Virus record (IMG/VR): IMGVR_UViG_3300032288_000738
Span: 1-34,044 of that record
DNA from: a virus
DNA: 34,044 nucleotides
Direction: 5' to 3' (one strand)
The notes beneath the pieces were generated by a model. The model saw only the letters and a list, made by a program, of their open reading frames with translations, had not been told where the DNA came from and did not search any database. Position numbers and translations under genes: made by a program. Within the stretch, counting starts at the first letter, position 1. Each line of letters opens with the position of its first letter. This document shows positions 2,325-31,725 of this stretch, in pieces.

Positions 2325-4290
2325 ATCGGGACGCAGACAAGTCCCCCCACAAGACGTAGCCCGCTTCTGGCAGGCCCGTGCATCGGGGATGACAATCAAA
2401 GAAGCCGCCAAAATCGCTGGGGTCCACTACAACACGGCTCAAAAGTGGGACGCGAAGAAACGTGAGGCTAAGGCCGAGCTGGAAATCGCCAAGTTGGACG
2501 GGCAGAAGGTGCGTCGGAAGGAAGGGGGCGTCCAAAATGACGCCTGGCAGAAGGTCATGGACGTGTCCGACCTGCCGCCCGTCATCCCATATGACCGGCT
2601 TTCTGAGGAAGCGAAGCGGGGACTGGTCGATTTTGACTATTTCCGCCGCCGCTATCTGGGCCGCATCCCCTCCCCGTGGCAGGTCGATGCCGCATACAAG
2701 ATCGAACAATGGTTGATGTCCGACGAGAAAGAGTTCCTCGTCCTCAACTGTCCCCCAGGAGCAGGCAAATCGACGCTGTTTCACGATGTTGCGGTATGGC
2801 AGATCGTGAAGAACCGGAAGATTCGTGTGATGATCGGCTCCGTTTCGCAGGCGTTGGCGAAGATGTATTCGCGGCGCATCCGAGAAACCCTTGAACGCCA
2901 GTTTCCGATTGACCCTGACCCGATTCTGATCGAGAAGGGGCTGGCAATCAAGGCCGAAGCCTGCCTTGCGATTGACTATGGGCGGTTCAAGCCTTCTCAG
3001 TCGGGTTCTTTGTGGCGGGCGGAGGAGTTCATCGTCGAACAAGAGGACTTGGGTGGGTTGGACAACAAGGAACCGACCGTTTCGGCGTATGGAATCGAGT
3101 CAGAGTTCATCGGTCACCGTGCCGACCTGTGCCTTTTCGACGATGTGGCCTCGCCGGAGAATGCGAAGGAGTCGGCGGCACGGGACAAGCTGATTGAACG
3201 GTGGGATTCGATGGCGGAAGCCCGTGTCGATCCGGGCGGTCTGCTGGCGGTGATCGGGCAGCGGCTCGGCCCGCTCGACCTGTACGCACATTGTCTTGGG
3301 AAGATCACCTATGAGGACTTTGACGACGACTACGACGGTTCGGATACCACCGATCCGACGGTTAGGGGCAAGGAACCGTTGAAAAAGCACAAGTACCACC
3401 ACCTGATCTACAAGGCGTACTACGACGAACTGGACACCGGGAAAGAATCACGGCGCAACACGGCACCCGCATGGCCCGACGGCCCCCTCCTCGACCCATA
3501 CCGGCTGTCATGGAAGGACTTGTCGTACGTCCGTTACTCCAACCCCGCCAAGTTCGCGGTCGTCTACCAGCAGGAGGACCAGGCAGAGGGCAACTATCTG
3601 ATCGAACGGGTTTGGGCAACCGGCGGAATGGGGCCAGACGGCGTGCTGTACCCCGGCTGCATCGACGGTGACCGGAAACCCGGCTACGTCCCCGGCGGCC
3701 TCAACCCGCCCGTCATCTCCATCGCCTCCGTAGACCCTTCACCCACAAAGTTCTGGGCGATCCAATGGTGGCTGTTCCAACCCGAAACGAACCTCCGCTA
3801 CCTGATTGACGTGGAACGGGTCGAGCTGACCGCCGAACAGTTGCTCGGCTACGACACCACCTCCGGCGAATATTCGGGCATCATGGAGGACTGGCAAAAC
3901 CGGTCGTGGGAGATGGGTTACCCCATCTCCCATTGGGTCGTGGAGATCAACGCTGCCCAGCGTTTCCTCCTCGCCCACGATTTCGTCCGCAAATGGCAGT
4001 CGCTCCAACAGGTGAACGTCATCCCCCACACGACGGCCCGAAACAAGATTGACGCCGACCTCGGCGTCGAGGCGATCCTCCCCCAACTGTTCCGCACCGG
4101 ATCGATCCGGCTGCCAACCATGAGGGAGAACTGGAAAACCCTCGCCTTCATCGACGAACACGCCTCATGGACTCGGGACAAGAAGAACGGAACCGACCTG
4201 GTGATGGCCTGCTGGATTGCGATGCTGAACATCCCGAACCTGTCCCCGGTGAAGCAGCCACCGAAACTGTGGCGTCCAAGTTGGATGTGA
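2311..4290 (+). CDS. terL: Terminase large subunit with N-terminal helix-turn-helix
   Basis: This is the packaging motor, which powers DNA translocation into the prohead and cuts the concatemer. Walker A is CPPGAGKST at residues 147-155, and Walker B is LCLFDDV at 273-279. The nuclease domain starts near residue 466 with ISIASVDPSP, where Asp475 is a likely metal ligand. At 659 aa it is longer than a typical TerL. The extra part is at the N terminus, where residues 14-53 look like a helix-turn-helix (GMTIKEAAKIAGVHYNTAQK). No separate small terminase is recognisable, so this segment may supply DNA recognition. The ATG overlaps the methyltransferase end, and its ribosome binding site is modest. 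Confidence 0.9.
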   Translation: MTAGRSGRRQVPPQDVARFWQARASGMTIKEAAKIAGVHYNTAQKWDAKKREAKAELEIAKLDGQKVRRKEGGVQNDAWQKVMDVSDLPPVIPYDRLSEEAKRGLVDFDYFRRRYLGRIPSPWQVDAAYKIEQWLMSDEKEFLVLNCPPGAGKSTLFHDVAVWQIVKNRKIRVMIGSVSQALAKMYSRRIRETLERQFPIDPDPILIEKGLAIKAEACLAIDYGRFKPSQSGSLWRAEEFIVEQEDLGGLDNKEPTVSAYGIESEFIGHRADLCLFDDVASPENAKESAARDKLIERWDSMAEARVDPGGLLAVIGQRLGPLDLYAHCLGKITYEDFDDDYDGSDTTDPTVRGKEPLKKHKYHHLIYKAYYDELDTGKESRRNTAPAWPDGPLLDPYRLSWKDLSYVRYSNPAKFAVVYQQEDQAEGNYLIERVWATGGMGPDGVLYPGCIDGDRKPGYVPGGLNPPVISIASVDPSPTKFWAIQWWLFQPETNLRYLIDVERVELTAEQLLGYDTTSGEYSGIMEDWQNRSWEMGYPISHWVVEINAAQRFLLAHDFVRKWQSLQQVNVIPHTTARNKIDADLGVEAILPQLFRTGSIRLPTMRENWKTLAFIDEHASWTRDKKNGTDLVMACWIAMLNIPNLSPVKQPPKLWRPSWM

Positions 4291-4296
4291 TACCGT
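4288..4296 (+). promoter_or_regulatory. Extended -10 (TGA-TACCGT) seven bases before the start codon
   Basis: TACCGT at 4291-4296 is preceded by TGA, which is the terminase stop codon and also fits the TGn of an extended -10. The ATG of the next gene is seven bases further on at 4304, and there is no Shine-Dalgarno in the gap. A transcript from here would start at or next to the ATG, a leaderless mRNA. Confidence 0.5.
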
Positions 4297-4303
4297 TCCG
4301 CTC

Positions 4304-5137
4304 ATGGCTGCCAAGAAGATGAAGAAGTCCTCCACCGCCCCTGCCCCTGCTCCGGCCCCTCCGCCGTCGTTGGAGGAGCAGCGCAAGAAGTTTGTTGCCG
4401 AGAAGGTGGCGCAGGGTGTGTCGCGTGAGGCGGCGAAGCAGCAGTTCTATGTGCAGACCCGTGTGAAGGAGTTGAAGGCTGCGGGCAAGGAGGTGACCCC
4501 TGCGGTGCGTGCCCAGCTCCGTCAGAACTGGCAGACGGGCAAGGTGAAGCGTGCCGCGTTTGGTGCGCCGAAGAAGGCGACGACGACCACGACTAGCACT
4601 AGCACGAAAGCCGCTACGCCATCGACGACGCGAATGGGTCCAGAGACGACTTCGTACACGACGAAGAAGCCGGATCGGATGGGTCAGGAGCCGATGGTAG
4701 GGATGATGTCCCCCGCCACCGGCAAGGTTGCGCGGACCGCCGCCCCGACCCCCGCAACGAAGGGCACCTCCAAGATGGATTGGATCAAGTCGTACCTCGG
4801 CTCGCAGAAGGACCAGTTCCCGAACCGCCTCGTTGCGGCCAGCCCCGTCGCCGCACTTGCACTGCCGATCATCAAGTCGGCCCGCAATCAGGGCGTGAAC
4901 CCGACCAATGTCACCTCGTTCACGCCTCGTGAGCTGGCAGGGAAGGCTGGCAGTTTCGTCGCTGATACGGCTAGGACGAATGCGCTGACTGGCGCGTCGC
5001 TGCTGGTCCGCCAAAGTCCAGTCCCGTTTGCGGCTGTGACTGCCTACCAGATGCAGAAGGCCGGTGCGTTCGGCAACACGACCAAGCCAGCGAAGCGCAC
5101 GTCTGGTGGCGGTGGTCGTTCCGGAACGAAGCGGTAA
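4304..5137 (+). CDS. Hypothetical basic head-module protein (277 aa)
   Basis: The family is not recognised. The N terminus is MAAKK followed by an Ala/Pro run, then a Lys/Glu/Gln helical segment (about residues 24-85), a Thr/Ser-rich linker (about 88-125), and a more ordered part with a short hydrophobic stretch around 183-191. The end is a Gly/Arg/Lys tail. The low-complexity, positively charged make-up suggests a disordered or DNA-contacting virion protein. Its position between terminase and portal fits a head-associated role, perhaps a small-terminase substitute, but nothing in the sequence proves it. The start follows directly after a -10-like element without a Shine-Dalgarno. Confidence 0.75.
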   Translation: MAAKKMKKSSTAPAPAPAPPPSLEEQRKKFVAEKVAQGVSREAAKQQFYVQTRVKELKAAGKEVTPAVRAQLRQNWQTGKVKRAAFGAPKKATTTTTSTSTKAATPSTTRMGPETTSYTTKKPDRMGQEPMVGMMSPATGKVARTAAPTPATKGTSKMDWIKSYLGSQKDQFPNRLVAASPVAALALPIIKSARNQGVNPTNVTSFTPRELAGKAGSFVADTARTNALTGASLLVRQSPVPFAAVTAYQMQKAGAFGNTTKPAKRTSGGGGRSGTKR

Positions 5138-5145: not shown

Positions 5146-5154
5146 TGATACATT
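5146..5154 (+). promoter_or_regulatory. Extended -10 (TGA-TACATT) nine bases before the portal start
   Basis: TGATACATT lies between the stop at 5137 and the GTG at 5164. Nine bases separate the hexamer from the GTG, so any leader would be only a few bases, and no purine-rich ribosome binding site is present. The arrangement resembles that at 4288-4296. Confidence 0.45.
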
Positions 5155-7320: not shown

Positions 7321-7321
7321 C

Positions 7322-17128: not shown

Positions 17129-17134
17129 GTCGTC

Positions 17135-19847: not shown

Positions 19848-19849
19848 TG

Positions 19850-19858: not shown

Positions 19859-19888
19859 CCGCCACGTTCCCAAAGGAAAGGTGGAGCA

Positions 19889-20074: not shown

Positions 20075-20178
20075 AGAAGCAGGGCTACACCAGCACCAAG
20101 AAGATGAACGCCGTCTCCGTCCCCGCCTACGCGAAGCCTGCCGGTGCGTTGAAGAAGAAGGGCAAGAAGAAGAAGTAA
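20071..20178 (+). CDS. Lysine-rich micro-protein (35 aa)
   Basis: The GTG overlaps the upstream TGA. The protein opens with KKQGYTSTKKM and ends in a run of lysines, with a short Val/Pro/Ala/Tyr core between. It ends directly against the ATG of the adaptor gene, whose ribosome binding site is the AAG-rich lysine-tail DNA. It is below the usual gene-calling size, but frame, coupling and composition agree with its neighbours. Confidence 0.6.
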   Translation: MKKQGYTSTKKMNAVSVPAYAKPAGALKKKGKKKK

Positions 20179-21066: not shown

Positions 21067-21067
21067 G

Positions 21068-22927
21068 ATGGCTGCCCTAATCGACTTTACGACGAAACTT
21101 GACGGCGATGCTGCGTTCTATACGGGTACGGGTGCGACGACCCTCGTGCCGGATGTGTTCCCTGTGGCGGTGAATGGCCGTCCGTATATGTTGGATTTGA
21201 AGTCGGGTGACTTTGCCCGACAGTACGATGCTCGTGTCCGTGATTCGGTGGATCAGTCCACGGAGCCGGGTGAGGCGGCGATCAACCCGCAGGGGTTGTG
21301 GCGGCGCAGCCAGTCGTCTTGGCACTACGGGGCCGGTCAGGAGTATTCGGATACGGCTGATGCGGAGCCGTACCGGTTCTACACGTCGAAGGGTGTGGAC
21401 GTGTGGACTCGGGGCGAACTGTCGCTCCTGCCGGATGTGACCCAGTTCTATGCGTCGGCAAACTCCAACTTCTACATGGCGACCGCCGATGGGCGTCTCT
21501 ACATTACGGATGGGCAGACAGTCCAGTATTCGTCCGATCTCTCCACGTTCACGACGGTGACCGGGACGGATGCGTCCAACCTGTATTCGATGGCGTCCGA
21601 CGGCTACAACGTGTTCTACTCGTATGCGAACGGCGACATTGACCAGACGAACGCGGGGATCAGCACCAACTCCAACTACATCACCGGCATCGAGGCAGGC
21701 GTTCTTGCCTATGTAAAGGGCCGTCTGATGGTCGCCGGTCAGGGGGTGGACAAGCACAAGATTTGGAACATCACCACGACACCAGGTTCCAATGCGAACA
21801 ACCCCGGTGCCTTGTTCACCCATCCGAACACGAACTTCAACTGGGTCGGATTCGCCGCCGGGCAGAACCACATCTACTGTGCCGGGTATGCGGGCAACAA
21901 GACGCTGATCTACAAGACGACGATCAAGGCTGACGGAACCGCCCTCGACATCCCGACGGTTGCAGCCGAGCTGCCGTTGGGTGAGATCGTCACCAACATC
22001 GACGGCTATCTCGGGTTTGTCGTCATCGGCTTGGAGACTGGGTTCAGGTTCTGCACGTCGGACGGCGACGGGAACCTTGTGGTCGGGCCGCTGGTTCGGA
22101 CGGGGACAAGTACGGCGGCGTTCGGGTCTGTCGGCCAGTACGTCTATTTCGGGTGGACGAACTATGACGGTGTTTCGACCGGTATCGGCAGGATGGATAC
22201 TGCTACCCAGATTTCCACGAATCAGCCTGCCTATGCGTCCGATCTGATGGTGACTGGGCAGGGCACGGTCACGGATGTCCACGAGTTTGACAATGAGCCG
22301 GTGTTCGCTGTCGCCGGGTTGGGTTTCTACAAGAAGCACGCTACGGGCAAGGTGGCGTCGGGCACCTTGCGGTCGGGTATCTACCGGTGGGATGTGCCGG
22401 ATGCGAAGTTCATTCCGAAGTGGGATTTGCGTGCCGAGGCTCTGAACGGCTCGGTGTCGTTGGCGGTGTCCAACGACAAGGGGACGTTCGTGACGGTTGG
22501 GAACATGACCCAATCCGGTGACTTGGAGGAAACGTTTGACGGGTTTGAGACACGGGTGTTTGAGGCTGAGGTGCAGCTGACCTTGACCCGTTCTGGGTCA
22601 GATGCGACGGTCGGGCCGGTGGTGACCCGTTGGATGGGCCGTGCCTATGCTGCCCCGCTCCGTGCCCAAATCTTTTCGGTGCCGCTGCTGTTGCACCATG
22701 TCGTCACCCCGTCCAACGGGCGGGACTATTTCGTCGATGTGGACGACGAGCTGGATCGGCTGCGGAACCTTGTGGACAATCCGCGTGTGGTCACCTATCA
22801 GGAGGGGAACCGGTCGTATTCGGTGATTGTGGAGGATGTCCGGTGGAGGCCGGTGCGAGCCTATGATGCCCATTATCCGTGGGATTGGGATGGCACCTGC
22901 CTGCTGATTATGCGTAGTGTAAGGTAA
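21068..22927 (+). CDS. Putative tail nozzle/beta-propeller tail protein (619 aa)
   Basis: This large beta-rich protein has repeated short strands, frequent Gly-Asp/Asn turns and aromatic residues throughout residues 60-430, giving a propeller-like look. The C-terminal part (about 480-619) is again beta-rich with a VTRWMGRAYAAPLRAQ segment and a Trp-rich end. In short-tailed phages the nozzle beneath the adaptor is of this size and follows the adaptor gene, as here. A receptor-binding or depolymerase role is the alternative; no hydrolase motif was seen. The ATG lies one base after the adaptor stop. Confidence 0.62.
   Translation: MAALIDFTTKLDGDAAFYTGTGATTLVPDVFPVAVNGRPYMLDLKSGDFARQYDARVRDSVDQSTEPGEAAINPQGLWRRSQSSWHYGAGQEYSDTADAEPYRFYTSKGVDVWTRGELSLLPDVTQFYASANSNFYMATADGRLYITDGQTVQYSSDLSTFTTVTGTDASNLYSMASDGYNVFYSYANGDIDQTNAGISTNSNYITGIEAGVLAYVKGRLMVAGQGVDKHKIWNITTTPGSNANNPGALFTHPNTNFNWVGFAAGQNHIYCAGYAGNKTLIYKTTIKADGTALDIPTVAAELPLGEIVTNIDGYLGFVVIGLETGFRFCTSDGDGNLVVGPLVRTGTSTAAFGSVGQYVYFGWTNYDGVSTGIGRMDTATQISTNQPAYASDLMVTGQGTVTDVHEFDNEPVFAVAGLGFYKKHATGKVASGTLRSGIYRWDVPDAKFIPKWDLRAEALNGSVSLAVSNDKGTFVTVGNMTQSGDLEETFDGFETRVFEAEVQLTLTRSGSDATVGPVVTRWMGRAYAAPLRAQIFSVPLLLHHVVTPSNGRDYFVDVDDELDRLRNLVDNPRVVTYQEGNRSYSVIVEDVRWRPVRAYDAHYPWDWDGTCLLIMRSVR
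22920..22925 (+). promoter_or_regulatory. Possible -10 (TAAGGT) nine bases before the fibre start
   Basis: TAAGGT overlaps the last codons of the nozzle gene and is identical to the -10 of the exonuclease promoter at 27257. The AAGG within it could instead be the Shine-Dalgarno of the fibre ATG, ten bases away. Both readings are possible. Confidence 0.25.
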
Positions 22928-22934
22928 GCCCGCT

Positions 22935-24092
22935 ATGGCCTTGCCGGTTCGCAGACAATACAAGGGTGCGGCGGCGTCTACGACGACGACCATCAACATT
23001 GGTGTTGCCGACACTTCGGTGTCCATTGCGTCGAACACGGGTTGGCCGGTTGGGGCTGACCCGTTCTATGTGGTGCTGTCCCCCGGCACGTCGTCGGAGG
23101 AGAAGTGCCTTGCGACGATTTCGGGGACGAGCCTGACGCTGACGAGGGCGCAGGATGACACTTCGGCGCAGACCCATGCTTCGGGTACGACGATCTACCC
23201 GGTGTTCACCGCTGTCGATGCGAACCAGGCGAACGAGTTGGCGTCGAAGATGACGACGAAGGGTGACCTGCTGACGACGAACGGGACGGACATCAACCGC
23301 CTCGGTGTCGGGACGAACACCCATGTGTTGCAGGCTGATTCGACGGCGACGAACGGCGTGAAGTGGGGTCAGGTGGCGACGGCGGGTATCGCTGATGCGG
23401 CGATTACCACGGCGAAGATCGCTACGGGTGCGGTGGTCGCGGACGATTTGGCGACTGATTCGGTTATCACCGTGAAGATTCAGGATAGTGCGGTGACGAC
23501 GGCGAAGATTGCGAATGGTGCGGTGACTGCCGCCAAGCTGGATGCTGCCGCTGCGATTCAGCCGACGATTGTGGATGCGAAGGGTGATCTGATCGCTGGT
23601 ACGGCGGCAGACACGGTGGCCCGTCTTGCGGTCGGTACGAATGGCCAGTATCTGAAAGCCGATTCGACGCAGACGACTGGTTTGGCTTGGGGCACGATTA
23701 CGCAGGCTGTGTCGTCGGTGACGACGGCTGAGGTGTCCACCTCGCAGACCTACACGAGCGCATCATTCGGTGACCTATCCACGAGCGGCCCGGCGGTGAC
23801 GGTGACTACTGGGACGAGCGTGCTGGTGGCGATCACCGCCACCGTCTACAACGGAACTTCGCAGGGCATCGGTGTGGTCGGTGTGGCCGTGTCCGGCACG
23901 ACGACAACCGCTGCCTCGGACGCAAACGCCCTCTATGTCACGTCGTCTACGAGCAACGGCGCATACCAGATGACCGCGCTGATCCCGCTGACCGTGACCG
24001 CCGGATCAAACACGTTCACCTTGAAGTATCGGACGGGTGCGGCGACGACGGCGACGTTCGCCAACCGACGGATTACGCTGATCGCACTATGA
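22935..24092 (+). CDS. Tail fibre protein (385 aa)
   Basis: The likely receptor-binding fibre, a homotrimer in most phages. Residues 1-100 form a beta-rich attachment domain. Two related blocks, KGDLLTTNGTDINRLGVGTN (109-128) and KGDLIAGTAADTVARLAVGT (216-235), each continue into an ADST-Trp-Gly segment and flank a region of Ala/Ile/Thr repeats (about 152-203, ITTAKIATGAV, VTTAKIANGAV). That pattern is typical of fibre shafts. Residues about 260-385 are a Thr/Ser/Val-rich beta domain that probably binds the host surface. The stop overlaps the next ATG (ATGA). Confidence 0.8.
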   Translation: MALPVRRQYKGAAASTTTTINIGVADTSVSIASNTGWPVGADPFYVVLSPGTSSEEKCLATISGTSLTLTRAQDDTSAQTHASGTTIYPVFTAVDANQANELASKMTTKGDLLTTNGTDINRLGVGTNTHVLQADSTATNGVKWGQVATAGIADAAITTAKIATGAVVADDLATDSVITVKIQDSAVTTAKIANGAVTAAKLDAAAAIQPTIVDAKGDLIAGTAADTVARLAVGTNGQYLKADSTQTTGLAWGTITQAVSSVTTAEVSTSQTYTSASFGDLSTSGPAVTVTTGTSVLVAITATVYNGTSQGIGVVGVAVSGTTTTAASDANALYVTSSTSNGAYQMTALIPLTVTAGSNTFTLKYRTGAATTATFANRRITLIAL

Positions 24093-24259
24093 CCTTTGAG
24101 ATGATTGTTGCTATCCGGCAGGCGTGCCACAACCTCGGCATGACCGAACCGATCAGCATCGAGATGGACGGAACCGTCTGGACTGGCCCGGACGACAACC
24201 GTTACTACCCGGAGATGAAGCCGATCCTGCGGGAAGCCGGGCGGATTCTTACCGCCTGA
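24089..24259 (+). CDS. Hypothetical small protein after the fibre (56 aa)
   Basis: Four bases overlap the fibre gene, so the two are translated in sequence. The protein has an N-terminal helix, a WTGPDDNRYYPEMKPIL segment and a helical end; no motif was recognised. A fibre chaperone or attachment protein is possible from position alone. Its TGA stop directly abuts the -10-like element of the lysis cassette. Confidence 0.65.
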   Translation: MTFEMIVAIRQACHNLGMTEPISIEMDGTVWTGPDDNRYYPEMKPILREAGRILTA

Positions 24260-24265
24260 TAGTCT
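24257..24265 (+). promoter_or_regulatory. Extended -10 (TGA-TAGTCT) six bases before the holin ATG
   Basis: The TGA stop of the preceding gene serves as the TGn. TAGTCT (24260-24265) and GCCGCC follow, then ATG 24272, with no Shine-Dalgarno. A nearly identical string GATAGCCTGCCGCC lies at 25155-25168. This would launch the lysis cassette as a leaderless mRNA. Confidence 0.55.
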
Positions 24266-24271
24266 GCCGCC

Positions 24272-24463
24272 ATGAGTACCGAGACGCAGGAAATGGTCAA
24301 GTCGTGGTGCAAGGTGTTCGTCGCCTCCGCCCTGTCCCTCTATGCGGCGGGTGAACGGGACTATGTGGCCCTGTTCCACGCAGCCCTGATTTCCGTCCTG
24401 CCGCTCGTCTACACCTGGCTTGACCCGACCGACCTGCGGTTCGGGAAGTTCAAGAAGAAGTAG
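24272..24463 (+). CDS. Putative holin (63 aa)
   Basis: The small protein has two hydrophobic stretches (about residues 14-25 and 33-50), the second the clearer membrane segment, and ends in a basic FGKFKKK tail. Size, charge distribution and position directly before the endolysin fit a small holin that opens the inner membrane at the end of infection. The stop TAG is followed at once by the endolysin ATG. Number of membrane spans is uncertain; an antiholin is the alternative. Confidence 0.65.
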   Translation: MSTETQEMVKSWCKVFVASALSLYAAGERDYVALFHAALISVLPLVYTWLDPTDLRFGKFKKK

Positions 24464-24934
24464 ATGCGCCGCCTCTATGTGGCGGACAGTCTCCCTGTCC
24501 GACGGAAGGAACTGCCGCACCTGCGGGCATTGGTCGATGCGTTGTGCGCCAAGTATCCGGCCTTGTGGGACAACGGGACGTGGGGTGTCCGTCCGATCCG
24601 GGGCAAGGAGCAGATGTCGAACCATGCCCGTGGGATCGCTGCTGACGTGTCGTGGCGGTACATGAAGCACAAGGGTGTCCGGTTCGGCGGACGCAAACAG
24701 GCTGTTGAGGCGATGAACTTTCTGGTCGCCAACGCCGAAGCCCTCGGAATCCAGATGATTATTGACTATGGCTTCGGGAAGCATGGTCGGGCGTGGAGGT
24801 GCGACCGCTGGGATTGGAAGGTGTACGACAAGCCGACCGTCACCTTTGGCGGGGTCGGAGACTGGTTCCATGTTGAGGTGGACGGCAAGGTGAAGCCCAT
24901 TCAGGTGTCTGCCGTGTTTGCGGTGGGTGCGTGA
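24464..24934 (+). CDS. Endolysin, M15-like zinc D,D-/L,D-carboxypeptidase
   Basis: The enzyme would cleave peptide stems of peptidoglycan for host lysis. The zinc site of M15-type peptidases is visible: SNHARGIAAD at residues 52-61 (His54 and Asp61) and GDWFHVEV at 132-139 (His136). An intervening helix (about 77-96) also fits the fold. At 156 aa it is a single catalytic domain with no recognisable cell-wall-binding domain or signal peptide, so it needs a holin to reach the wall. It follows the putative holin with no gap. Confidence 0.78.
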   Translation: MRRLYVADSLPVRRKELPHLRALVDALCAKYPALWDNGTWGVRPIRGKEQMSNHARGIAADVSWRYMKHKGVRFGGRKQAVEAMNFLVANAEALGIQMIIDYGFGKHGRAWRCDRWDWKVYDKPTVTFGGVGDWFHVEVDGKVKPIQVSAVFAVGA

Positions 24935-24935
24935 C

Positions 24936-25151
24936 ATGGATCAGCCGATGGCAGTCATCGTCGCAGCCCTGATTGCGGCGGTTGGCTCCATCATCGTCGC
25001 CCTGCTGAACAAGGTTCGCAAGGAAAACAAGGGTGACCACGAGCTTGTCATGGGGCTGTTGAAGATGGTGGGCCGGAAGCAGGATCGGCTGGATCAGAAG
25101 CTTGACCATCTGGCGGAGCGGTTCACCGACCACTTGCACGGGCACAAGTAG
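24936..25151 (+). CDS. Membrane protein with coiled-coil tail (71 aa)
   Basis: Residues 5-27 form one strong membrane segment (AVIVAALIAAVGSIIVALL), followed by a highly charged helix (about 30-65) likely to be a coiled coil. ATG 24936 lies one base after the endolysin stop. In phages of Gram-positive hosts a second small membrane protein often accompanies the holin; this may be a second holin or a lysis regulator. The name stays open because sequence alone does not separate these. Confidence 0.7.
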   Translation: MDQPMAVIVAALIAAVGSIIVALLNKVRKENKGDHELVMGLLKMVGRKQDRLDQKLDHLAERFTDHLHGHK

Positions 25152-25179
25152 CCCGATAGCCTGCCGCCCTCTAAGGAGG
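25134..25179 (+). promoter_or_regulatory. -35/-10 promoter TTGCAC-N17-TAGCCT with strong RBS
   Basis: TTGCAC (25134-25139) and TAGCCT (25157-25162) stand 17 bases apart, ideal spacing. The leader then carries AAGGAGG at 25173-25179, ten bases before the ATG at 25190. The -35 lies within the 3' end of the preceding lysis-cassette gene. This is a clear start for the nucleic-acid module. Confidence 0.65.
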
Positions 25180-25189
25180 GTTGTTGCAT

Positions 25190-25357
25190 ATGGCACGGCA
25201 GTTCAGTACGGTGGAGTTGAAGTTCCTGCGGGACTGCCTCCGCAAATCCCAGATTGGGAGGGCGGAGGCTGACAGACTGTGGGGGCTGGTGGAGAAGATC
25301 GACCGGCTGATCGAGGAGGAGAAGCATGGGAGAACTGGCAAAGCAGTTTCAGGCTGA
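25190..25357 (+). CDS. Hypothetical small helical protein (55 aa)
   Basis: A strong ribosome binding site and a good promoter support expression. The product is an almost continuous charged helix up to residue 46, with LKFLRDCLRKSQIGRAEADR and VEKIDRLIEEE, so a dimerising coiled coil is possible. The end overlaps the next gene by 32 bases in another frame. Family unknown. Confidence 0.62.
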   Translation: MARQFSTVELKFLRDCLRKSQIGRAEADRLWGLVEKIDRLIEEEKHGRTGKAVSG

Positions 25358-25574
25358 ACGTGTCCCCAGCGGTGGGGTTCGTGAGCCTGTGCTGACGACG
25401 ATCCTGCGGGAGATGTCGGAGGACGACAGGAACGATCTGTTGGAGGCTCTGGGTGATCCGACGCTCAGTTCGGGGGCGATCCTCCGGGTGTTGTCGGCCC
25501 GTGGCTACAAGATCGGTATCACGTCAATCAAGGCTTACCGTCGAGGGGAGATCGCCAATGTCTATGAAGGATGA
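25326..25574 (+). CDS. Putative helix-turn-helix protein (82 aa)
   Basis: GAGGAGGAG precedes the ATG. The C-terminal half (about residues 40-75, LGDPTLSSGAILRVLSARGYKIGITSIKAYRRG) has the spacing of a helix-turn-helix in which the last helix would read DNA. A transcription regulator or a small-terminase-like DNA-binding protein is possible. It overlaps the phosphoesterase gene, with which it is co-expressed. The motif call was made by eye and is moderate. Confidence 0.6.
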   Translation: MGELAKQFQAERVPSGGVREPVLTTILREMSEDDRNDLLEALGDPTLSSGAILRVLSARGYKIGITSIKAYRRGEIANVYEG

Positions 25575-26604
25575 GATCGCAGCGCAGCAGAAGGACGAGT
25601 CGCTTGTCCGTAAGCAGCGTGACCAGTACGCCCGGCAGAACGGCCAGTTGCAGTCCCGTGTGGACGAGTTGGAGCAGGTGCTGGGGATCGTCGAGCGGGC
25701 GGAGACGCAGCGGTTGGAGCCTCCGATGTGGATGGTTCCGGCGAAGCCGAAGAAGTCTGCGGCGACCCTTGTGGTGATGCTGTCGGACACCCACTTTGAC
25801 GAGGTGGTGAATCCCGACGAGATGGAGGGGTTGAACGCCTACAACCGTGAGATCGCCGTGCTGCGGTTGGAGCGGTGGGCGCAGAACGTGGTCAAGTTGG
25901 CGCGCCACTACTTGTCTGGGGTGACCTATGACGGGGTGGTCGTCATCCTCGGGGGCGACATCTTCACCGGTGACATCCACGAGGAGCTGACGGTGACGAA
26001 CGAGGACACGATGATCGGGTCGCTCCTGTTCTGGTCGGAGCAGCTGGCCGCCGCCCTCGACCTGTTGGCAACCGAGTTCGGGAAGTGCCATGTGGTGAGC
26101 GTGGTCGGCAACCACGGGCGCACCACCCGGAAGCCCCGGATGAAGCAGCGTGTCCGCACCAACTTCGACTATCTGCTGGCGAAGATGGTGGAACGTCACT
26201 TCGCCAAGAATCCGAAGATCACGTTCACCATCCCCGAGTCCGCCGATGCGCTGATCCGCATCTACGACCACGGGCACCTCGTCACCCACGGCGACCAGGT
26301 GAACGGTGGCGGCGGTATCGGTGGCATCTATCCGCCGATCATGCGGATGCGTGCCCGCAAGTACCAGCGGTACATGGCGACCGGCAACCAGTTCGCAACC
26401 TTGTGGCTGGGTCATTGGCACCAGTACCTGTCCACCCCGTCGATGATCGTGAACGGATCGTTGAAGGGGTTCGACGAGTACGCCCTGCTGTCGGGGTTCA
26501 ACTTTGAGCAGCCTCAGCAGGCGTTGGCGGTGGTCACGCCGGAGAAGAACATCACGTTTCAGGCACCCGTGTTCTGCATGGATAGGAGGAAGGAGAAGTG
26601 GTGA
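25558..26604 (+). CDS. Calcineurin-like metallophosphoesterase (Mre11/SbcD-like)
   Basis: This is a two-metal phosphodiesterase. All signature blocks are present: DTH at residues 77-79, GGD at 132-134, GNHGR at 184-188, HGD at 244-246 and GHWH at 285-288. The N-terminal 55 residues are a coiled coil. Enzymes of this fold include the Mre11/SbcD nucleases, which process DNA ends. The nearby exonuclease and annealing protein suggest recombination or concatemer processing, but no SbcC-like ATPase is encoded here and RNA or protein substrates remain possible. ATG 25558 follows GAGGGGAG at seven bases; ATG 25564 is the alternative. Confidence 0.82.
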   Translation: MSMKDEIAAQQKDESLVRKQRDQYARQNGQLQSRVDELEQVLGIVERAETQRLEPPMWMVPAKPKKSAATLVVMLSDTHFDEVVNPDEMEGLNAYNREIAVLRLERWAQNVVKLARHYLSGVTYDGVVVILGGDIFTGDIHEELTVTNEDTMIGSLLFWSEQLAAALDLLATEFGKCHVVSVVGNHGRTTRKPRMKQRVRTNFDYLLAKMVERHFAKNPKITFTIPESADALIRIYDHGHLVTHGDQVNGGGGIGGIYPPIMRMRARKYQRYMATGNQFATLWLGHWHQYLSTPSMIVNGSLKGFDEYALLSGFNFEQPQQALAVVTPEKNITFQAPVFCMDRRKEKW

Positions 26605-26954
26605 ACGACGACAATGGGGCGGACGTGCTGTTGGAGGCACACCAGTTGGTGACCGGCCCACGGCAGGCGACCTACTCGCATCCGTATGACGACTACACGA
26701 AGGTGGTTACCATCTTTCGTGCCCTGACGGGGATTGACCTGACGTTGGAGCAGGCACTCCTGTTCATGGTGTCCGTCAAGATGGCACGGCTCCGCACCAA
26801 CCTTGCGGGCGGGAAGCTGCATCGGGACAGCCTCGTCGATGCCGCCGGATATCTGGCGTGCATGGCGATGGTGGACAAGGTGCGCCGGGAAAGCACCACG
26901 AACGAGTGGGAGGCTTACTACGACAAGGGATGGGCCGGGCAGACCGGCGAGTAG
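26601..26954 (+). CDS. DUF6378-like phage protein (117 aa)
   Basis: The pattern GPRQATYSHPYDDYTKVVTI near residues 19-38, then a helix with KMARL and later HRDSLVDAAGYLACMA, resembles the DUF6378 family found in phages; no function is known to me. Conserved His/Asp residues hint at a metal site. GTG 26601 was preferred to GTG 26598 because it overlaps the upstream stop as GTGA and leaves better spacing from AAGGAG. Its TAG stop forms the first three bases of the next -10-like hexamer. Confidence 0.68.
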   Translation: MNDDNGADVLLEAHQLVTGPRQATYSHPYDDYTKVVTIFRALTGIDLTLEQALLFMVSVKMARLRTNLAGGKLHRDSLVDAAGYLACMAMVDKVRRESTTNEWEAYYDKGWAGQTGE

Positions 26955-26957
26955 GAT
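26952..26957 (+). promoter_or_regulatory. -10-like TAGGAT containing the upstream stop codon
   Basis: TAGGAT starts with the TAG stop of the preceding gene and is followed by GTCCCG and ATG 26964. The ten-base gap between genes leaves no room for a Shine-Dalgarno, and none is visible. A leaderless start is the simplest account, though translational coupling from the upstream gene is possible. Confidence 0.5.
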
Positions 26958-26963
26958 GTCCCG

Positions 26964-27242
26964 ATGCCGTGGTCGCTGATCGTCGTCTATTGGGAAGATG
27001 CGTTTGACGGGCCGAACGGCTGGACAGACACGACCGAATACAAGACCGGCCCGGCGATGGTCGCCACCGTCGGCTGGCTATGGCCCGACTGCCTCGACGG
27101 GTATCTGACCCTGGTGAACAGCTACTTCCCGGACGACCTGCCGGACATTGACACGGTGGGGATGCCCGTCCACATTCCGTTGGGCATGATCCGCAAGACC
27201 GTCCTGCTAGATCAGCCGAGTTTCAGAAAAGAGTTGCAGTAA
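26964..27242 (+). CDS. Hypothetical protein (92 aa)
   Basis: No family was recognised. The sequence has a compact beta-rich character with many aromatic and acidic residues (VVYWEDAFDG at the start, GWLWPDCLDGYL in the middle) and a hydrophobic run near 70-85. An immunity-evasion or regulatory role would be speculation. The stop codon lies in the loop of an inverted repeat that overlaps the -35 of the recombination promoter. Confidence 0.65.
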   Translation: MPWSLIVVYWEDAFDGPNGWTDTTEYKTGPAMVATVGWLWPDCLDGYLTLVNSYFPDDLPDIDTVGMPVHIPLGMIRKTVLLDQPSFRKELQ

Positions 27243-27262
27243 CCCTGCAACACCCGTAAGGT
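27233..27262 (+). promoter_or_regulatory. Recombination-operon promoter with overlapping dyad
   Basis: TTGCAG (27234-27239) and TAAGGT (27257-27262) are 17 bases apart. A perfect 7-bp inverted repeat, GTTGCAG (27233-27239) / CTGCAAC (27245-27251) with loop TAACC, covers the -35 and part of the spacer, where a repressor dimer could bind. AGGAGG at 27276-27281 then precedes the exonuclease ATG. The repeat could instead be a weak RNA hairpin ending the upstream transcript. Confidence 0.6.
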
Positions 27263-27288
27263 ACAAGACAGGCATAGGAGGTGCCCGA

Positions 27289-28236
27289 ATGAACCATTAC
27301 ACAATCCCAAAGCCGCCCCACGGGTCGGCAGACTGGCTGGCAGCCCGCTGGCAGAACGAGGCAGGTGAGAAGCGGATCACCGCATCCGTCGCCGCCGCCG
27401 TCCACGGCTGCCACCCGTACGTCACGATGGCTGACCTTGCCGTCGAACTGCTGGCGGACGAACCGCCGCAGCCGAAGGAAGCGAACAGCGCAATGCGCCG
27501 GGGCACCATCCTCGAAGGCCCCATCGTCAAGTGGGCCGGAGAAATCCTCGGCGTCACCATCGTCGAACCGCAGCAGCTCTACTGCTACGAGGAGCCGGGC
27601 GTGCGGATGCTCGCCACGATGGACGGGCTAGACAGCGGCGGACAGTTTTACGAGGTGAAAACGTACAACCGCCGCTGGAAGGGGCAGTTGCCAGACCATT
27701 GGTACTGGCAGGGTGTGCACCAGGCGATCTGCGCGAACGTCCCAAACATCGAGTGGGTCGTGTTTGATTCCGATCTTGACTTGCAGTTCGTCGTACAGTC
27801 CGTCAGCTCCGACGAACGCCAGACCCACATCGAAGCGGTACGCAAGTTCCTGTCGTTCATCGACATGGGAATGATCCCAGAGGGAGCAGACGTGGGTTAC
27901 GACCATGCCGTCCGCCTGCACCCAATGGGTGATGGTCAAAGCGTTGCCCTCGATGCCACAGTCTACGACACGTTGGAGCGGATGGCGTTGGCCGATGCCC
28001 AGATCAAGTCGGCTGAGGCGATCAAGGAGCAATGCAAGGGCGAACTGGGTCTGTTGCTCGGAAATGCCGAGTATGGGCAGGTGGATGGGACTACGGTGGT
28101 GACGTGGAAGTCGGCCACCCGGTCGTCGTTCGACACGAAGGCGTTTGAGAAGGAGCATCCGGCTCTGTACGCCAAGTTCAAGAAAGAAACCACATACCGC
28201 ACCATGCGGATCACAGCGAAGGAGGCACAGCAATGA
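27289..28236 (+). CDS. YqaJ-like viral exonuclease
   Basis: A lambda-exonuclease-fold enzyme (PD-(D/E)XK superfamily) that degrades one strand at duplex ends to leave 3' single strands. Landmarks: SADWLAARW near the start, MRRGTILEG with Glu76, Asp112, YEVKT with Glu122 and Lys124 as the catalytic core, and HWYWQGVHQA (137-146), the glutamine motif following it. At 315 aa it is of usual size plus a charged C-terminal helix. It shares an ATGA overlap with the annealing protein, its expected partner. It has its own promoter, with a dyad. Confidence 0.85.
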   Translation: MNHYTIPKPPHGSADWLAARWQNEAGEKRITASVAAAVHGCHPYVTMADLAVELLADEPPQPKEANSAMRRGTILEGPIVKWAGEILGVTIVEPQQLYCYEEPGVRMLATMDGLDSGGQFYEVKTYNRRWKGQLPDHWYWQGVHQAICANVPNIEWVVFDSDLDLQFVVQSVSSDERQTHIEAVRKFLSFIDMGMIPEGADVGYDHAVRLHPMGDGQSVALDATVYDTLERMALADAQIKSAEAIKEQCKGELGLLLGNAEYGQVDGTTVVTWKSATRSSFDTKAFEKEHPALYAKFKKETTYRTMRITAKEAQQ

Positions 28237-29315
28237 GCAATCTCGTCATCCGTCCCGACCAGCAGGGGTTCACCCCGCAGCAGTTGGCGACGTTGAAGCA
28301 GCTGGGGGTGGAGAAGGTGTCCGAGGGTGACCTCGGCGTGTTCTTCCACCAATGCCAGCGCACCGGACTCGACCCGTTCGCCAAGCAGATTTACATGGTG
28401 GGCCGGTGGGATGGTCGGGCGAACGCGATGCGGTACACGATCCAGACTGGGATCGACGGCTACCGGCTGATTGCGGAGCGCACCGGCGTGTACGCCGGGT
28501 CGGACGAGTCGTGGGTGGAGAAGGACGGCAAGCCCGTGTCCGCGACGGTGACTGTCCGCAAGGTGGTCGCCGGTCAGGTGTGCGAGTTCACCGCCACCGC
28601 CCGTTGGGAGGAGTACGTCCAGTTGGGCAAGGACTCCAAGCCGATGGGTCTGTGGTCGAAGATGCCGCACCGGATGCTCGCCAAGTGCGCGGAGGCTCTC
28701 GCTCTCCGTAAGGCGTTCCCGCAGGACTTGTCGGGGCTTTACACGACGGAGGAGATGGCGCAGGCCGATGCCCAGCCCGAGCCGCAGCGTGTGCAGGCGA
28801 CCCGAGTGGACGCACCCCAGGCGGATGCTGATCCGTTGGTGTCGGTGGAGAACCTGACCCGGTTCCGTGAGGCGTGCAAGAAGGCGGGGCTGTCGCCGGA
28901 GCAGGTCGCGGACAACGCTGGCGTCACTCTGGCCGGGTTGCGTGAGTCCGAGATGCCCGCGCTGCGGGCGGCGTTCAAGGATTTGCAGTCGTTCGCCGCA
29001 CCGGACAACGCGCCGGAGCCGCCGTCCATCGACGAGATGGTCGCTGACCTTGCCGAGCAGTTCGGTGGGGAGATCATCGACGCCGAGGTCATCGAGGATG
29101 CGCCGAAGCCGAAGCCGTCCATCAAGGAGCCGGGTGCCCCGGCGTCCAAGCCGCAGATCGGTGCGATTATGGGCATCTTGAAGGATCGGAACGTGACTGA
29201 CCGCCGCGAGGTGTTGGAGGTCTGCTCCGAGGTGGTGGGCCGGGTGCTCGGTTCGTTCGACGAGATGACGAAGGGCGATGCGTCGAAGGTCATCTCCTAC
29301 TTGAAGGGGGAGTGA
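28233..29315 (+). CDS. bet: Phage recombination protein Bet (RecT/Red-beta family)
   Basis: A single-strand annealing protein that pairs the 3' tails made by the adjacent exonuclease. The family signature CQRTGLDPFAKQIYM lies at residues 41-55, followed by the strand-rich core (about 56-180). Residues about 185-300 are Ala/Glu/Asp-rich and flexible. The last 60 residues form a separate helical domain (SKPQIGAIMGIL..., MTKGDASKVI) of the type found at the C terminus of several phage annealing proteins, perhaps for partner binding. Overlaps on both sides (ATGA, TGATG) place it in the middle of the operon. Confidence 0.88.
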   Translation: MSNLVIRPDQQGFTPQQLATLKQLGVEKVSEGDLGVFFHQCQRTGLDPFAKQIYMVGRWDGRANAMRYTIQTGIDGYRLIAERTGVYAGSDESWVEKDGKPVSATVTVRKVVAGQVCEFTATARWEEYVQLGKDSKPMGLWSKMPHRMLAKCAEALALRKAFPQDLSGLYTTEEMAQADAQPEPQRVQATRVDAPQADADPLVSVENLTRFREACKKAGLSPEQVADNAGVTLAGLRESEMPALRAAFKDLQSFAAPDNAPEPPSIDEMVADLAEQFGGEIIDAEVIEDAPKPKPSIKEPGAPASKPQIGAIMGILKDRNVTDRREVLEVCSEVVGRVLGSFDEMTKGDASKVISYLKGE

Positions 29316-29554
29316 TGCGAACCCGTACATTCGGTCTTAGTGCCGATATTTCCTCTGCCGAGGCGGATGAACTTGTCCCGATTATTTCGGAGCAGATGAG
29401 TCGTCTGATTCTCAATGATGTGCGGATAGGCGGGATGATCCCGTTGTCCGAACCGTCTGTCCGTGTTGAGGATGTGAGTTGGGTGGACGATGAAACTGGC
29501 GAGCACTACGAGTTCAAGCGTGTCATTTGCCGGTGCGAGGGAGGCGCAAAGTGA
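29315..29554 (+). CDS. Hypothetical protein (79 aa)
   Basis: ATG 29315 overlaps the Bet stop as TGATG and follows AAGGGGGAG. A beta strand and helix open the protein (FGLSADISSAEADELVPII), followed by a second mixed segment with a Trp-Val-Asp-Asp turn and a CRCEGG end. The composition resembles small phage regulators of nucleic-acid enzymes, but no family is recognised. Confidence 0.68.
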   Translation: MRTRTFGLSADISSAEADELVPIISEQMSRLILNDVRIGGMIPLSEPSVRVEDVSWVDDETGEHYEFKRVICRCEGGAK

Positions 29555-29736
29555 CGTACGACCCGTTTGGTGAGGCGCATGTGTCGGAGTTGACGGTGGA
29601 GTCGGTGCGGGAACGGCTGCTGGAAATGGCAGACCAGTTCCCCGCTGGCCCCGTGTTCCAGCTTCTGATGGACACGGTGGATGTGATCGACTGGATGGAG
29701 CACCGGTTGGAGCCGCGTGTCTGGGAGGAGAACTGA
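29551..29736 (+). CDS. Hypothetical helical micro-protein (61 aa)
   Basis: GTG 29551 overlaps the previous stop (GTGA) and has GAGGGAGG a few bases upstream; a longer frame from ATG 29527 would extend into the previous gene. The protein is helical with acidic/leucine spacing (VESVRERLLEMADQF, FQLLMDTVDVIDWMEHRL). No motif recognised; its TGA overlaps the next ATG. Confidence 0.62.
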   Translation: MTYDPFGEAHVSELTVESVRERLLEMADQFPAGPVFQLLMDTVDVIDWMEHRLEPRVWEEN

Positions 29737-29936
29737 TGAGGGGCCGGATGTTGAAGAAGGCATGGAAGATATTCACCGTGTCGCCGTGGCAGTTGAAGGC
29801 AATGGCACTCGCACAGGAAGGCATGTGCAACCGCACCTATGCCGCACTCGACGAGGACGGTTGCATCGTCTATGTCCACCCCTGCGGCAACGACTGCCTG
29901 TGGTCGGACGCTTGGTACGAAACGATCAACCCGTGA
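29736..29936 (+). CDS. Hypothetical small protein with three cysteines (66 aa)
   Basis: It starts with a basic amphipathic segment (MRGRMLKKAWKIFTV) and continues with cysteines at about residues 31, 43, 50 and 54 around a YVHPCGNDC centre, possibly a small zinc site. It is coupled to both neighbours by overlapping stop/start codons. Function unknown. Confidence 0.6.
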   Translation: MRGRMLKKAWKIFTVSPWQLKAMALAQEGMCNRTYAALDEDGCIVYVHPCGNDCLWSDAWYETINP

Positions 29937-30010
29937 CCGACTTCATCATGACCGTCGGCTTCGGCATCTTCCTCGTGTCCGCCGCCCTCGCCTTGTCGAA
30001 GGTCGAGTGA
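29933..30010 (+). CDS. Single-span membrane micro-peptide (25 aa)
   Basis: GTG 29933 overlaps the upstream TGA (GTGA) and the stop overlaps the next ATG (TGATG). Nearly all residues between 5 and 21 are hydrophobic (MTVGFGIFLVSAALALS), enough for one membrane span. At this size it would be missed by most gene callers; the double coupling argues it is translated. It may modulate a membrane process or simply keep ribosomes moving through the operon. Confidence 0.5.
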   Translation: MTDFIMTVGFGIFLVSAALALSKVE

Positions 30011-30180
30011 TGCGCGGCATTTGGGCGATGCGTTGCAACAAGTGCGAGGCCGTCGTCATCCGTCTCCCCGACCGGACAGCCGGATGCCTGTGCGACCCCG
30101 ACGCACCCACATGGATCGCAATCCAAACGAACGGCAGGCTCATCACCATGTCACAAGCCGACTACGAGATCATCGACTGA
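30010..30180 (+). CDS. Small zinc-ribbon-like protein (56 aa)
   Basis: CNKC at residues 9-12 and CLC at about 27-29 could bind one zinc, followed by a short strand pair. ATG 30010 overlaps the preceding TGA and its own TGA overlaps ATG 30180. Such small ribbons are frequent in phage early operons and may bind nucleic acid or a host protein. Confidence 0.6.
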   Translation: MRGIWAMRCNKCEAVVIRLPDRTAGCLCDPDAPTWIAIQTNGRLITMSQADYEIID

Positions 30181-30638
30181 TGGACGAACGGAAGGGAGAA
30201 TGCGATGGCAACAAGGAGAAGTGTTCGCTTCCCGAATGCCCAAAGTACGGTTTGCTACGTCCAGCTAGCAAGGACGGGAAGCGACGGGTCAGGGGCTGCG
30301 GTGATCCTGTTGCACGAGGACAACGGAACCGTGCTAAGGGAGACGGGAAGGCTCGACGAGCGCGAAAGAAACTCGGTCTTACTGCGACAGGCAAGGCAGG
30401 TTCTCGGCACGAGGAACATTGGGCGGGTTTCTTTCGGGTGGAAGTCAAGGCGGGTGCCCAGATTGGCCCGATTGCTACTCGTTTCGCCGCTGCTCGTGCT
30501 CAGTCTGAGGCATCAAAGGCTTTGGGCGATATTCGACCGTTTCTAATGGTGGCAATGCCGGACGGAACTTCTGATGGAATCGTGCTGATGAGGTTGGAGG
30601 AGTTCGCAGAACTGGTTATGCTGGTCACACAGGCGTAA
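30180..30638 (+). CDS. Possible small nuclease/resolvase-like protein (152 aa)
   Basis: The N-terminal part has several Cys (CDGNKEKC, CPKYG, CGDP), a possible metal-binding knuckle, then an Arg/Lys-rich stretch (about 48-75). The C-terminal part, HWAGFFRVEVKAGAQ at about 83-97, has a VEVK like the catalytic strand of PD-(D/E)XK nucleases, followed by an Ala-rich helix and a MPDGTSDGIVLMRL end. A Holliday-junction or similar nuclease would fit the recombination operon. The motif is incomplete by eye, so the function is tentative; the gene itself is well supported by coupling and length. Confidence 0.6.
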   Translation: MDERKGECDGNKEKCSLPECPKYGLLRPASKDGKRRVRGCGDPVARGQRNRAKGDGKARRARKKLGLTATGKAGSRHEEHWAGFFRVEVKAGAQIGPIATRFAAARAQSEASKALGDIRPFLMVAMPDGTSDGIVLMRLEEFAELVMLVTQA

Positions 30639-30745
30639 GGTCAGTAGCACGGGTGCCCGAGTCCTAGTCTCGGGAGCTGACCTCCCCCACCCCATGCGGG
30701 CAATGCGCGAAGCATCAGGGGTGGGGGCGAGTCCCGGCACTACTG
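30639..30745 (+). ncRNA. Highly structured intergenic RNA candidate
   Basis: Fold A is a three-way junction. A closing stem CAGTAG-CA-CGGG (30642-30653) / CCCG-GCA-CTACTG (30733-30745) surrounds a hairpin CCCGAG/CTCGGG (30656-30674, 7-base loop). It also surrounds a very strong stem CCCCCACCCC (30684-30693) / GGGGTGGGGG (30718-30727), itself extended by ATGC/GCAT. Fold B pairs GGTCAG (30639-30644) with CTGACC (30677-30682), which cannot coexist with the closing stem. It starts right after a TAA stop and ends at a promoter-like element. It may be a switch, a processing site, a terminator without a T-run or a stable phage RNA. Confidence 0.5.
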
Positions 30746-30752
30746 CTAGGGT
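30744..30752 (+). promoter_or_regulatory. Extended -10 (TGC-TAGGGT)
   Basis: TGC followed by TAGGGT directly abuts the closing stem of the structured RNA, whose last base pair uses the TG of the element. TTAGGAGG overlaps the hexamer end and gives the transglycosylase ATG at 30765 a strong ribosome binding site, so a transcript starting near 30759 would lose that site. Expression from the upstream transcript is therefore also plausible. Confidence 0.35.
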
Positions 30753-30764
30753 TAGGAGGACCTG

Positions 30765-31370
30765 ATGCTGATGTTCCTGCGGCTCGGAGCCGTCGCCCTC
30801 ATGGGCGTGATTGGAACCGCCACCTACAAGGAAGCGGCCCACGCACCATCCATCCCACAAGACACGATCATCGTCGTGCCCGACAGGATCGCCCCAGACC
30901 CCGATTCCGGGGCTTCTGACGGGGGTATCAGCCGGATCGTGTTCCGGCATGGGGACGTTTCGTGGCTGCCCGTTCTGGCTGCCGAGGCAGGGTGGCCGGA
31001 AGCAACGTGGCCCCGGCTAGCGCACATCATCCTGCGGGAATCGGGCGGCTGCCCATACCGTCGAGGTGGGGACGTGGTGGACAAGGAATGCAATGTGCTG
31101 CGGGTCGCCACCCGTGTGAACCGGTCAGATACCGGGCTGATGCAGTTGAACGGTGTGCATTGGAAGCGCGACCACGCCAAGTATGAGGGGCTGGTGTGCG
31201 AGCGGATGGGGGTCTGCGATCAGGAAACGCTGATGGACCCGCTCACCAACCTGAAAGCCGGGTACCTGCTGTATTCGGTGGCTGGTTGGGCACCGTGGGA
31301 CCCGTGCCAATGGGGTCCGAAGTATGTGAAGCAATGCAAAAGCCTTGAAGATTGGCCTCCCGCCCCGTAG
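30765..31370 (+). CDS. Lytic transglycosylase-like protein with membrane anchor
   Basis: It would cut the glycan backbone of peptidoglycan. Residues 1-20 are hydrophobic and form a signal anchor or signal peptide; residues 26-60 are a Pro/Asp-rich linker. The SLT-like domain covers about 65-190: the catalytic glutamate lies in ILRESGG (Glu92), GLMQLN at 124-129 is the substrate-groove motif, and TNLKAGYLLY with a Trp-rich end follows. Cysteines suggest disulfides outside the membrane. It lies far from the endolysin and has a distinct domain, so it may act in entry, in superinfection control or as a second lysis factor. Confidence 0.75.
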   Translation: MLMFLRLGAVALMGVIGTATYKEAAHAPSIPQDTIIVVPDRIAPDPDSGASDGGISRIVFRHGDVSWLPVLAAEAGWPEATWPRLAHIILRESGGCPYRRGGDVVDKECNVLRVATRVNRSDTGLMQLNGVHWKRDHAKYEGLVCERMGVCDQETLMDPLTNLKAGYLLYSVAGWAPWDPCQWGPKYVKQCKSLEDWPPAP

Positions 31371-31373
31371 GGT
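31345..31373 (+). promoter_or_regulatory. -35/-10 promoter TTGAAG-N17-TAGGGT of the whiB-like gene
   Basis: TTGAAG (31345-31350) is 17 bases from TAGGGT (31368-31373). The TAG of the -10 is the stop codon of the transglycosylase gene. ATG 31381 follows after seven bases, GGGTGCC, with no proper Shine-Dalgarno; the transcript start would fall at the ATG. Confidence 0.62.
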
Positions 31374-31380
31374 GGGTGCC

Positions 31381-31725
31381 ATGTCCGAATGGGACGATGA
31401 CTACACAGGTTTGGAGGAACCTATGACGATAGACAGAGATCCGATGCTGCTCGCATTCGATCAGATCAAGAACACCGACCGAAGCTGGGTCGCCCAAGCG
31501 CATTGCAAGGGGATGGATCCGCAGATGTTCTTCCTTGAACACAACGAGAACGGTGCGAACTACGTCAAGTTGAAGAACGCCCGCATCGTGTGTGGTGGAT
31601 GCCCGGTCAGGCAGGAATGTTTCCAGTATGCGATGGACAACTGGGAACCTGCCGGTATTTGGGCGGGGACGACCCCGATGGATCGGCGCAAGATGAGGAA
31701 CGGAGGGATGAAGTATGGAATCTGA
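31381..31725 (+). CDS. WhiB-family iron-sulfur transcription factor
   Basis: WhiB-like proteins hold a [4Fe-4S] cluster and bind the primary sigma factor to alter promoter choice. All marks are here: cysteines 42, 71, 74 and 80 in the order C...CxxCxxxxxC, the turn GIWAGTT (92-98) and a basic tail RRKMR. The length of 114 aa is normal. The family is known only from actinobacteria and their phages, which supports the host assignment. ATG 31381 was chosen over a frame that extends upstream into the transglycosylase. Likely roles are control of phage late genes or of host genes, possibly with superinfection effects. Confidence 0.92.
   Translation: MSEWDDDYTGLEEPMTIDRDPMLLAFDQIKNTDRSWVAQAHCKGMDPQMFFLEHNENGANYVKLKNARIVCGGCPVRQECFQYAMDNWEPAGIWAGTTPMDRRKMRNGGMKYGI

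Follow-up and report, generated by a model that had tools for sequence, protein, structure and literature searches.

Predicted -10-only promoters, leaderless or short-leadered, at the module heads of a phage genome from IMG/VR

In Actinobacteria, leaderless genes carry a TANNNT element about 12 bp ahead of the start codon and tend to be operon-proximal, the distal genes being led by a Shine-Dalgarno sequence (Zheng 2011, PMC3160421). In Mycobacterium tuberculosis this element is found at 73% of primary starts, without a -35 box, and 26% of the genes with a primary start are leaderless; TGn stands at 7% of the TANNNT promoters and goes with higher activity (Cortes 2013, PMC3898074). An earlier note had described leaderless mRNAs as well known in actinobacteria, which these studies bear out, and had proposed such starts for the IMG/VR virus record IMGVR_UViG_3300032288_000738, whose 34,044 nucleotides constitute the window analyzed here. 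We propose that the module heads of this phage most likely use actinobacterial-type -10 promoters (a reading to which we give a probability of about 0.78), from which the mRNA would either start at the codon, and thus be leaderless, or carry a short leader.

Since leaderless operon heads are known in actinobacteria and predicted in mycobacteriophages, they are not new in principle. The window resembles the actinobacterial leaderless genes in the hexamer, in its distance to the start, in the lack of both a -35 box and a Shine-Dalgarno sequence and in the operon-proximal position, and it differs in being a phage genome. In Deinococcus-Thermus, a -10 motif 6-7 bp before the open reading frame drives leaderless expression, as tested by mutation and reporters (PMC12340547); the distance is similar to that seen here, but that work concerns bacterial chromosomes from another phylum, and the available part of the report describes no promoter-fused hairpin. 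Among phages, the Cluster O mycobacteriophages have predicted leaderless promoters (PL1, PR2 and PL2; PMC4351075), and so has gene 90 of Adephagia, near a putative terminator (PMC11373665). The mycobacteriophage predictions are of two-box sigma-A promoters, whereas the window phage offers only a -10, and in its group, unlike those predictions, a promoter that is leaderless in one genome may be leadered at the orthologous place in another. The Streptomyces Manuelvirus phages Kumquat and RosePharie share with the window the order terminase-portal-large protein-capsid and a hairpin after the capsid gene, but they have no TAnnnT after this hairpin, and their next gene, like almost all of their operon heads, is Shine-Dalgarno-led. 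What the window and its relatives add is a fused hairpin/-10/start unit and a repeated switching between leaderless and leadered starts; neither was found in the literature compared, which does not prove their absence.

The window has a GC content of ~61% and its convincing genes all lie on the + strand, as do the promoters and the hairpin located below. The recognized families are terminase, portal and capsid. No DNA-level relative was detected among 50,697 phage records, and no named phage has close DNA. The capsid is ~43% identical to that of Streptomyces Manuelvirus phages and a WhiB-like gene (WhiB domain) starts at 31381, and together these suggest an actinobacterial host; genome scans with the portal and capsid gave either no host or distant Clostridia matches only. 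The comparison drew on 270 related loci, and the counts in relatives cover ~2 Mb of related IMG/VR contigs.

In the mechanism that we propose, the housekeeping RNA polymerase of the host, through its sigma factor, would recognize TAnnnT largely independently of a -35 box, as in actinobacteria, often aided by a TGn in front of the hexamer (an extended -10). A -10 located 6-9 bases before the codon would make the mRNA begin at, or no more than ~3 bases from, the AUG or GUG and so lead to leaderless translation, while one located 16-30 bases before it would yield a short leader with a Shine-Dalgarno sequence; the choice between the two would thus be decided by the place of the start codon behind the -10. 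Genes inside modules would be translated by coupling or from their own Shine-Dalgarno sequence.

Hexamers at detached starts

The earlier note had claimed six TAnnnT hexamers, each 6-9 bases before a start codon and without a Shine-Dalgarno sequence, and every one is present: TACCGT (4291; spacer of 7 bases to ATG 4304), TACATT (5149; 9 to GTG 5164), TATTCT (17123-17128; 6 to GTG 17135), TAGTCT (24260; 6 to ATG 24272), TAGGAT (26952-26957; 6 to ATG 26964) and TAGGGT (31368-31373; 7 to ATG 31381, the WhiB-like gene). The spacers therefore measure 6, 6, 6, 7, 7 and 9 bases, in keeping with the range claimed, and no usable Shine-Dalgarno sequence is found at any of the six; between positions -20 and -4 of the leaderless sites, AGGA, GGAG or GAGG occurs only as the AGGA within TAGGAT 26952. 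A seventh site, missing from that note, is formed by overlapping TAGTGT and TAAGGT hexamers (TAGTGTAAGGT, 22915-22925) before ATG 22935, and in all seven the first T of the hexamer lies 12-15 bases 5' of the start codon. TG stands one base before the hexamer at three of these seven sites (4291, 5149 and 24260). The terminase start at 2311, with TAGGAT 11-12 bases upstream, was considered as a site and not counted.

The gene list of the window was fixed before the enrichment test, and all 45 starts were tested. Starts were classed as detached (gap of at least 5 to the upstream gene) or coupled (gap below 5), and as lacking a Shine-Dalgarno sequence when they had none of AGGA, GGAG or GAGG. TAnnnT was found at a spacer of 5-9 in 6 of the 8 detached starts lacking a Shine-Dalgarno sequence (4304, 5164, 17135, 22935, 24272 and 31381), compared with a mean of 0.37 and a maximum of 3 for the same starts in 2000 dinucleotide shuffles, so that the enrichment over shuffled sequence implied by the original claim is indeed there. 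The start at 26964 falls outside this set because TAGGAT itself holds AGGA; counting by eye, with 26964 added, gives 7 of 9 detached starts.

In the relatives, counts were made on deduplicated starts from families with at least 3 members, and the expectation was derived from the same upstream regions. Detached starts lacking a Shine-Dalgarno sequence had TAnnnT at a spacer of 6-9 in 53 cases where 8.6 were expected; a promoter search across related phage genomes, suggested with the original claim, thus recovers a positional peak, and 32 cases against 7.2 expected are left when both families of post-capsid genes are taken out. Coupled starts showed no excess (17 against 19.1), and this difference from the detached starts favors a -10 function for the hexamer. 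Shine-Dalgarno-led detached starts lacked the peak at a spacer of 6-8 but had 57 TAnnnT located 16-31 bases upstream where 21 were expected, which would represent promoters with short leaders. With one vote per family, TAnnnT ranked first of 64 motifs of like form at a spacer of 6-8 (14.5 against 4.8). A two-box scan of 16900-34044 revealed no TTGACA-like -35 box 16-18 bases upstream, with nothing above shuffles, and a -35 signal was absent from the aligned promoters.

The border behind the capsid gene

The strongest predicted leaderless site is TATTCT 17123. For this border, 52 distinct relatives, a count that includes the window, were read downstream of the capsid stop. In the window, a GC-rich, terminator-like hairpin with a 13-bp stem (17081-17114) separates the major capsid gene from the -10, and the 58 bases before the hexamer have a folding energy of -38.3 (z -4.9). 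A strong measurable hairpin follows the capsid gene in 49 relatives (median z -5.4), and in 29 it stops 0 or 1 base before TAnnnT, usually with TGn in front; altogether TGn precedes 36 of 49 post-capsid promoters of the relatives, as opposed to the 7% of M. tuberculosis. The hexamer itself varies (TATTCT, TATTAT, TACACT, TATCAT, TAGAAT, TAAAAT and others). The start codon lies 6, 7 or 8 bases past TAnnnT, a leaderless geometry, in 29 of the 52 (6 or 7 bases in 28 of these 29), the flanks having diverged, and 16-42 bases past it (mostly 17), with a GAGG-type Shine-Dalgarno sequence, in 19; the start type is unclear in 4. That the distance to the codon stays constant while hexamer and flanks vary has hardly any explanation other than a promoter that fixes the 5' end.

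At this border the hairpin would sit in the place of the -35 and run straight into the -10, such that within ~70 bases one transcript would end and the next would have its promoter and its start. We call the hairpin only terminator-like because the window has no clear U-tract directly after the stem (its tail reads GCTTCCTG), and a strict scan did not flag it; CTTTT follows the stem in some relatives. Hairpin stability is given as single-sequence z-scores, as a consensus fold attempted on a MAFFT alignment suffered from misaligned stems.

The gene after the capsid gene belongs to one of two families. In the window it encodes 88 amino acids of the MPTFxPPTDDF family (17135-17401, read from the putative leaderless start), and 22 of the 25 members of this family that follow a capsid gene are leaderless by geometry, the other 3 being unclear. 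The 120-amino acid family, by comparison, has 19 leadered and 7 leaderless members. Well-supported branches in the tree of the 120-amino acid proteins force at least three changes between leaderless and leadered starts, and the capsid tree needs five. As this promoter appears leaderless in some close relatives and is followed by a short Shine-Dalgarno start in others, it constitutes a natural experiment on the choice of initiation mode.

Some relatives depart from the common arrangement. In L011, L014 and L018, TGC-TACAGT or TGA-TACAGT stands before, not after, the hairpin, and the start codon after the hairpin has no TAnnnT at 6-8 bases. L021 and L023 have a tandem pair of hairpin-plus-TAnnnT units, the second of them short-leadered. 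L040, L055 and L079 share TAAGGT(6)ATG and their nearest relatives in the capsid tree are Shine-Dalgarno-led; it is possible that their start region was exchanged by recombination.

Short-gap borders and alternative readings

Of the remaining sites, those at 24260 and 4291 are well supported as candidate promoters and that at 5149 fairly so, while those at 26952 and 31368 are the weakest. TACCGT 4291 belongs to TGA-TACCGT (4288-4296), where an extended -10 would take its TGn from the TGA that ends the terminase gene; in the relatives, too, this gene often ends in a TGA that provides the TGn. TGA-TAGTCT (24257-24265), 6 bases before ATG 24272, likewise takes its TGn from an upstream TGA stop. 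TGA was followed by TAnnnT in 14 of 134 cases and TAA or TAG in 5 of 245 (p 0.0008), a count that is not independent because most of these cases are terminase borders. TGA-TACATT (5146-5154) lies 9 bases before GTG 5164 of the portal gene; one portal clade carries TGATAACTTgtatctaaATG with a spacer of 8, and the portal genes of the other relatives are Shine-Dalgarno-led. Before 22935, TAGTGTAAGRT is kept in most of ~18 relatives even though the final codons of the upstream gene run through it, and the conservation of TAGTGTAAGGT (22910-22935) at the nucleotide level, despite its being coding, suggests a synonymous constraint from an overlapping promoter. The TAG of TAGGAT 26952 is the stop codon of the gene at 26601-26954 and that of TAGGGT 31368 ends the gene at 30765-31370. 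In close relatives whose upstream gene differs, the place of 26952 is again taken by TAnnnT, with a spacer of 8 and mostly from a stop codon, which gives this position moderate support as a leaderless site; 31368, for which there is a single close relative (89% identity), is the weakest of all. The idea that a TAA or TAG stop is a selected part of the hexamer was rejected, with no excess of a final T (5 of 31 stops in relatives).

A first alternative is that the short-gap borders have no promoter, and that the genes at 4304, 24272, 26964 and 31381 are co-transcribed with their upstream neighbors and start by termination-reinitiation 9-13 bases past the stop, the hexamers being stop codons plus a chance T. 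Gaps of only 9-13 bases at these four borders are in line with this, as are the stop codons that provide the TA at 26952 and 31368 and the lack of final-T excess after TAA or TAG stops at a gap of 9-11 across the relatives. However, all six homologues of 24272 retain TAnnnT at a spacer of 6-8 (TATTGT, TATGGT, TAAATT and TAGGGT), with TGC or TGA directly before each, behind differing upstream sequence; moreover, TAnnnT occurs 0-6 bases past the terminase stop in most relatives whichever gene follows, leaderless or Shine-Dalgarno-led. Reinitiation also cannot account for 17135, with its gap of 70 and its hairpin, and we regard it as an unlikely explanation.

A second alternative accepts ordinary promoters and places the true starts a few bases 5' of the codon, so that leaders of 2-10 bases would make these genes short-leadered rather than leaderless. 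A spacer of 9-10 is frequent, as in the portal clade and at 22935, and GGAG occurs in some of the intervals, but the spacers of 6-8 at 17135 and 24272 leave no room for a leader, and M. tuberculosis genes count as leaderless when transcription begins no more than 5 bases from the codon (PMC3898074); we consider this account improbable.

Leadered promoters are nevertheless part of the reading that we prefer, that of -10 promoters at module heads. The window has three predicted short-leader promoters: TGG-TAGCGT (hexamer at 19853-19858), 30 bases ahead of ATG 19889, the interval holding a Shine-Dalgarno sequence; TAGCCT (25157-25162), 27 bases before ATG 25190 with AAGGAGG between, where TAGNNT is kept at about equal distance in most homologues; and TAAGGT (27257-27262), 26 bases before ATG 27289 with AGGAGGTG between. 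These three, together with the excess at 16-31 bases before Shine-Dalgarno-led starts of the relatives and the mode switching of orthologous promoters, contradict the proposal of the earlier note that a leaderless start is the rule for beginning a module, which was too strong. Its reading of the hexamers as -10 elements that set the mRNA start at the codon holds up in their position and conservation pattern, as the element persists at 17123, at 24260 and after the terminase while flanks and neighbor genes change, and fails as a universal module rule. The constant feature at module heads would be the -10-only promoter and not the leaderless mode.

A more ambitious interpretation, which appears to us quite doubtful, concerns a large clade of environmental phages. 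In it, selection would keep leaderless initiation at the heads of structural operons and also remove it again and again, making it a layer of control (e.g., one that lets late genes be translated while initiation factors are scarce), and the fused hairpin/-10/start unit would determine how much capsid is made relative to the downstream proteins. That AT-richer intergenic sequence merely yields TAnnnT by chance is very improbable for the whole set, although 19 of the 67 TAnnnT of the window touch the intergenic 5% and single sites such as 31368 may possibly have arisen in this way, since the excess is confined to a spacer of 6-9 within the same upstream regions, surpasses dinucleotide shuffles and other motifs of like form, has no counterpart at a spacer of 6-8 of Shine-Dalgarno-led starts and comes with hexamers that stay conserved at several of the borders.

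Several observations weigh against the promoter reading. In Kumquat, the nearest cultured relative examined, the operon heads are nearly all Shine-Dalgarno-led, with one leaderless-like head only (34615). The peak obtained with one vote per family is modest, which indicates that the signal sits at few conserved borders. The gene at 4304 is an orphan for which no homologues were found, and the hexamers at 26952 and 31368 could be a coincidence, given that their TA comes from an upstream TAG stop with no final-T excess. If the promoter reading is correct, gene callers that rely on Shine-Dalgarno sequences could misplace such starts in uncultured actinophages, for which a mechanistic reading is now offered.

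Neighboring genes and a pseudoknotted RNA

Two DNA methyltransferase genes (1308-2324 and 32052-33356) lie close to the two ends of the window, and a glycosyltransferase-like gene (18335-19420) lies within the structural region.

A conserved pseudoknotted RNA (30639-30736) was observed between two genes. Its four helices, P1 (7 bp), P2, P3 and P4, covary across the window, L174, L166, L221, L217 and L219, and P1 begins right after the TAA (30636-30638) of the open frame at 30021-30638. The helices follow the order P1, P2, P3, P1', P4, P2', with a CGA(A) junction after P4 and before P2', which we take to be the order of the hepatitis delta virus (HDV) ribozyme. No Rfam family matches this RNA. 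A clear P1.1 is lacking, and in one relative the C of the junction is replaced by U; for these reasons we treat a possible HDV-like ribozyme as a lead, not a result. Ribozymes of the HDV-like kind are known from gut phages (PMC10879173).

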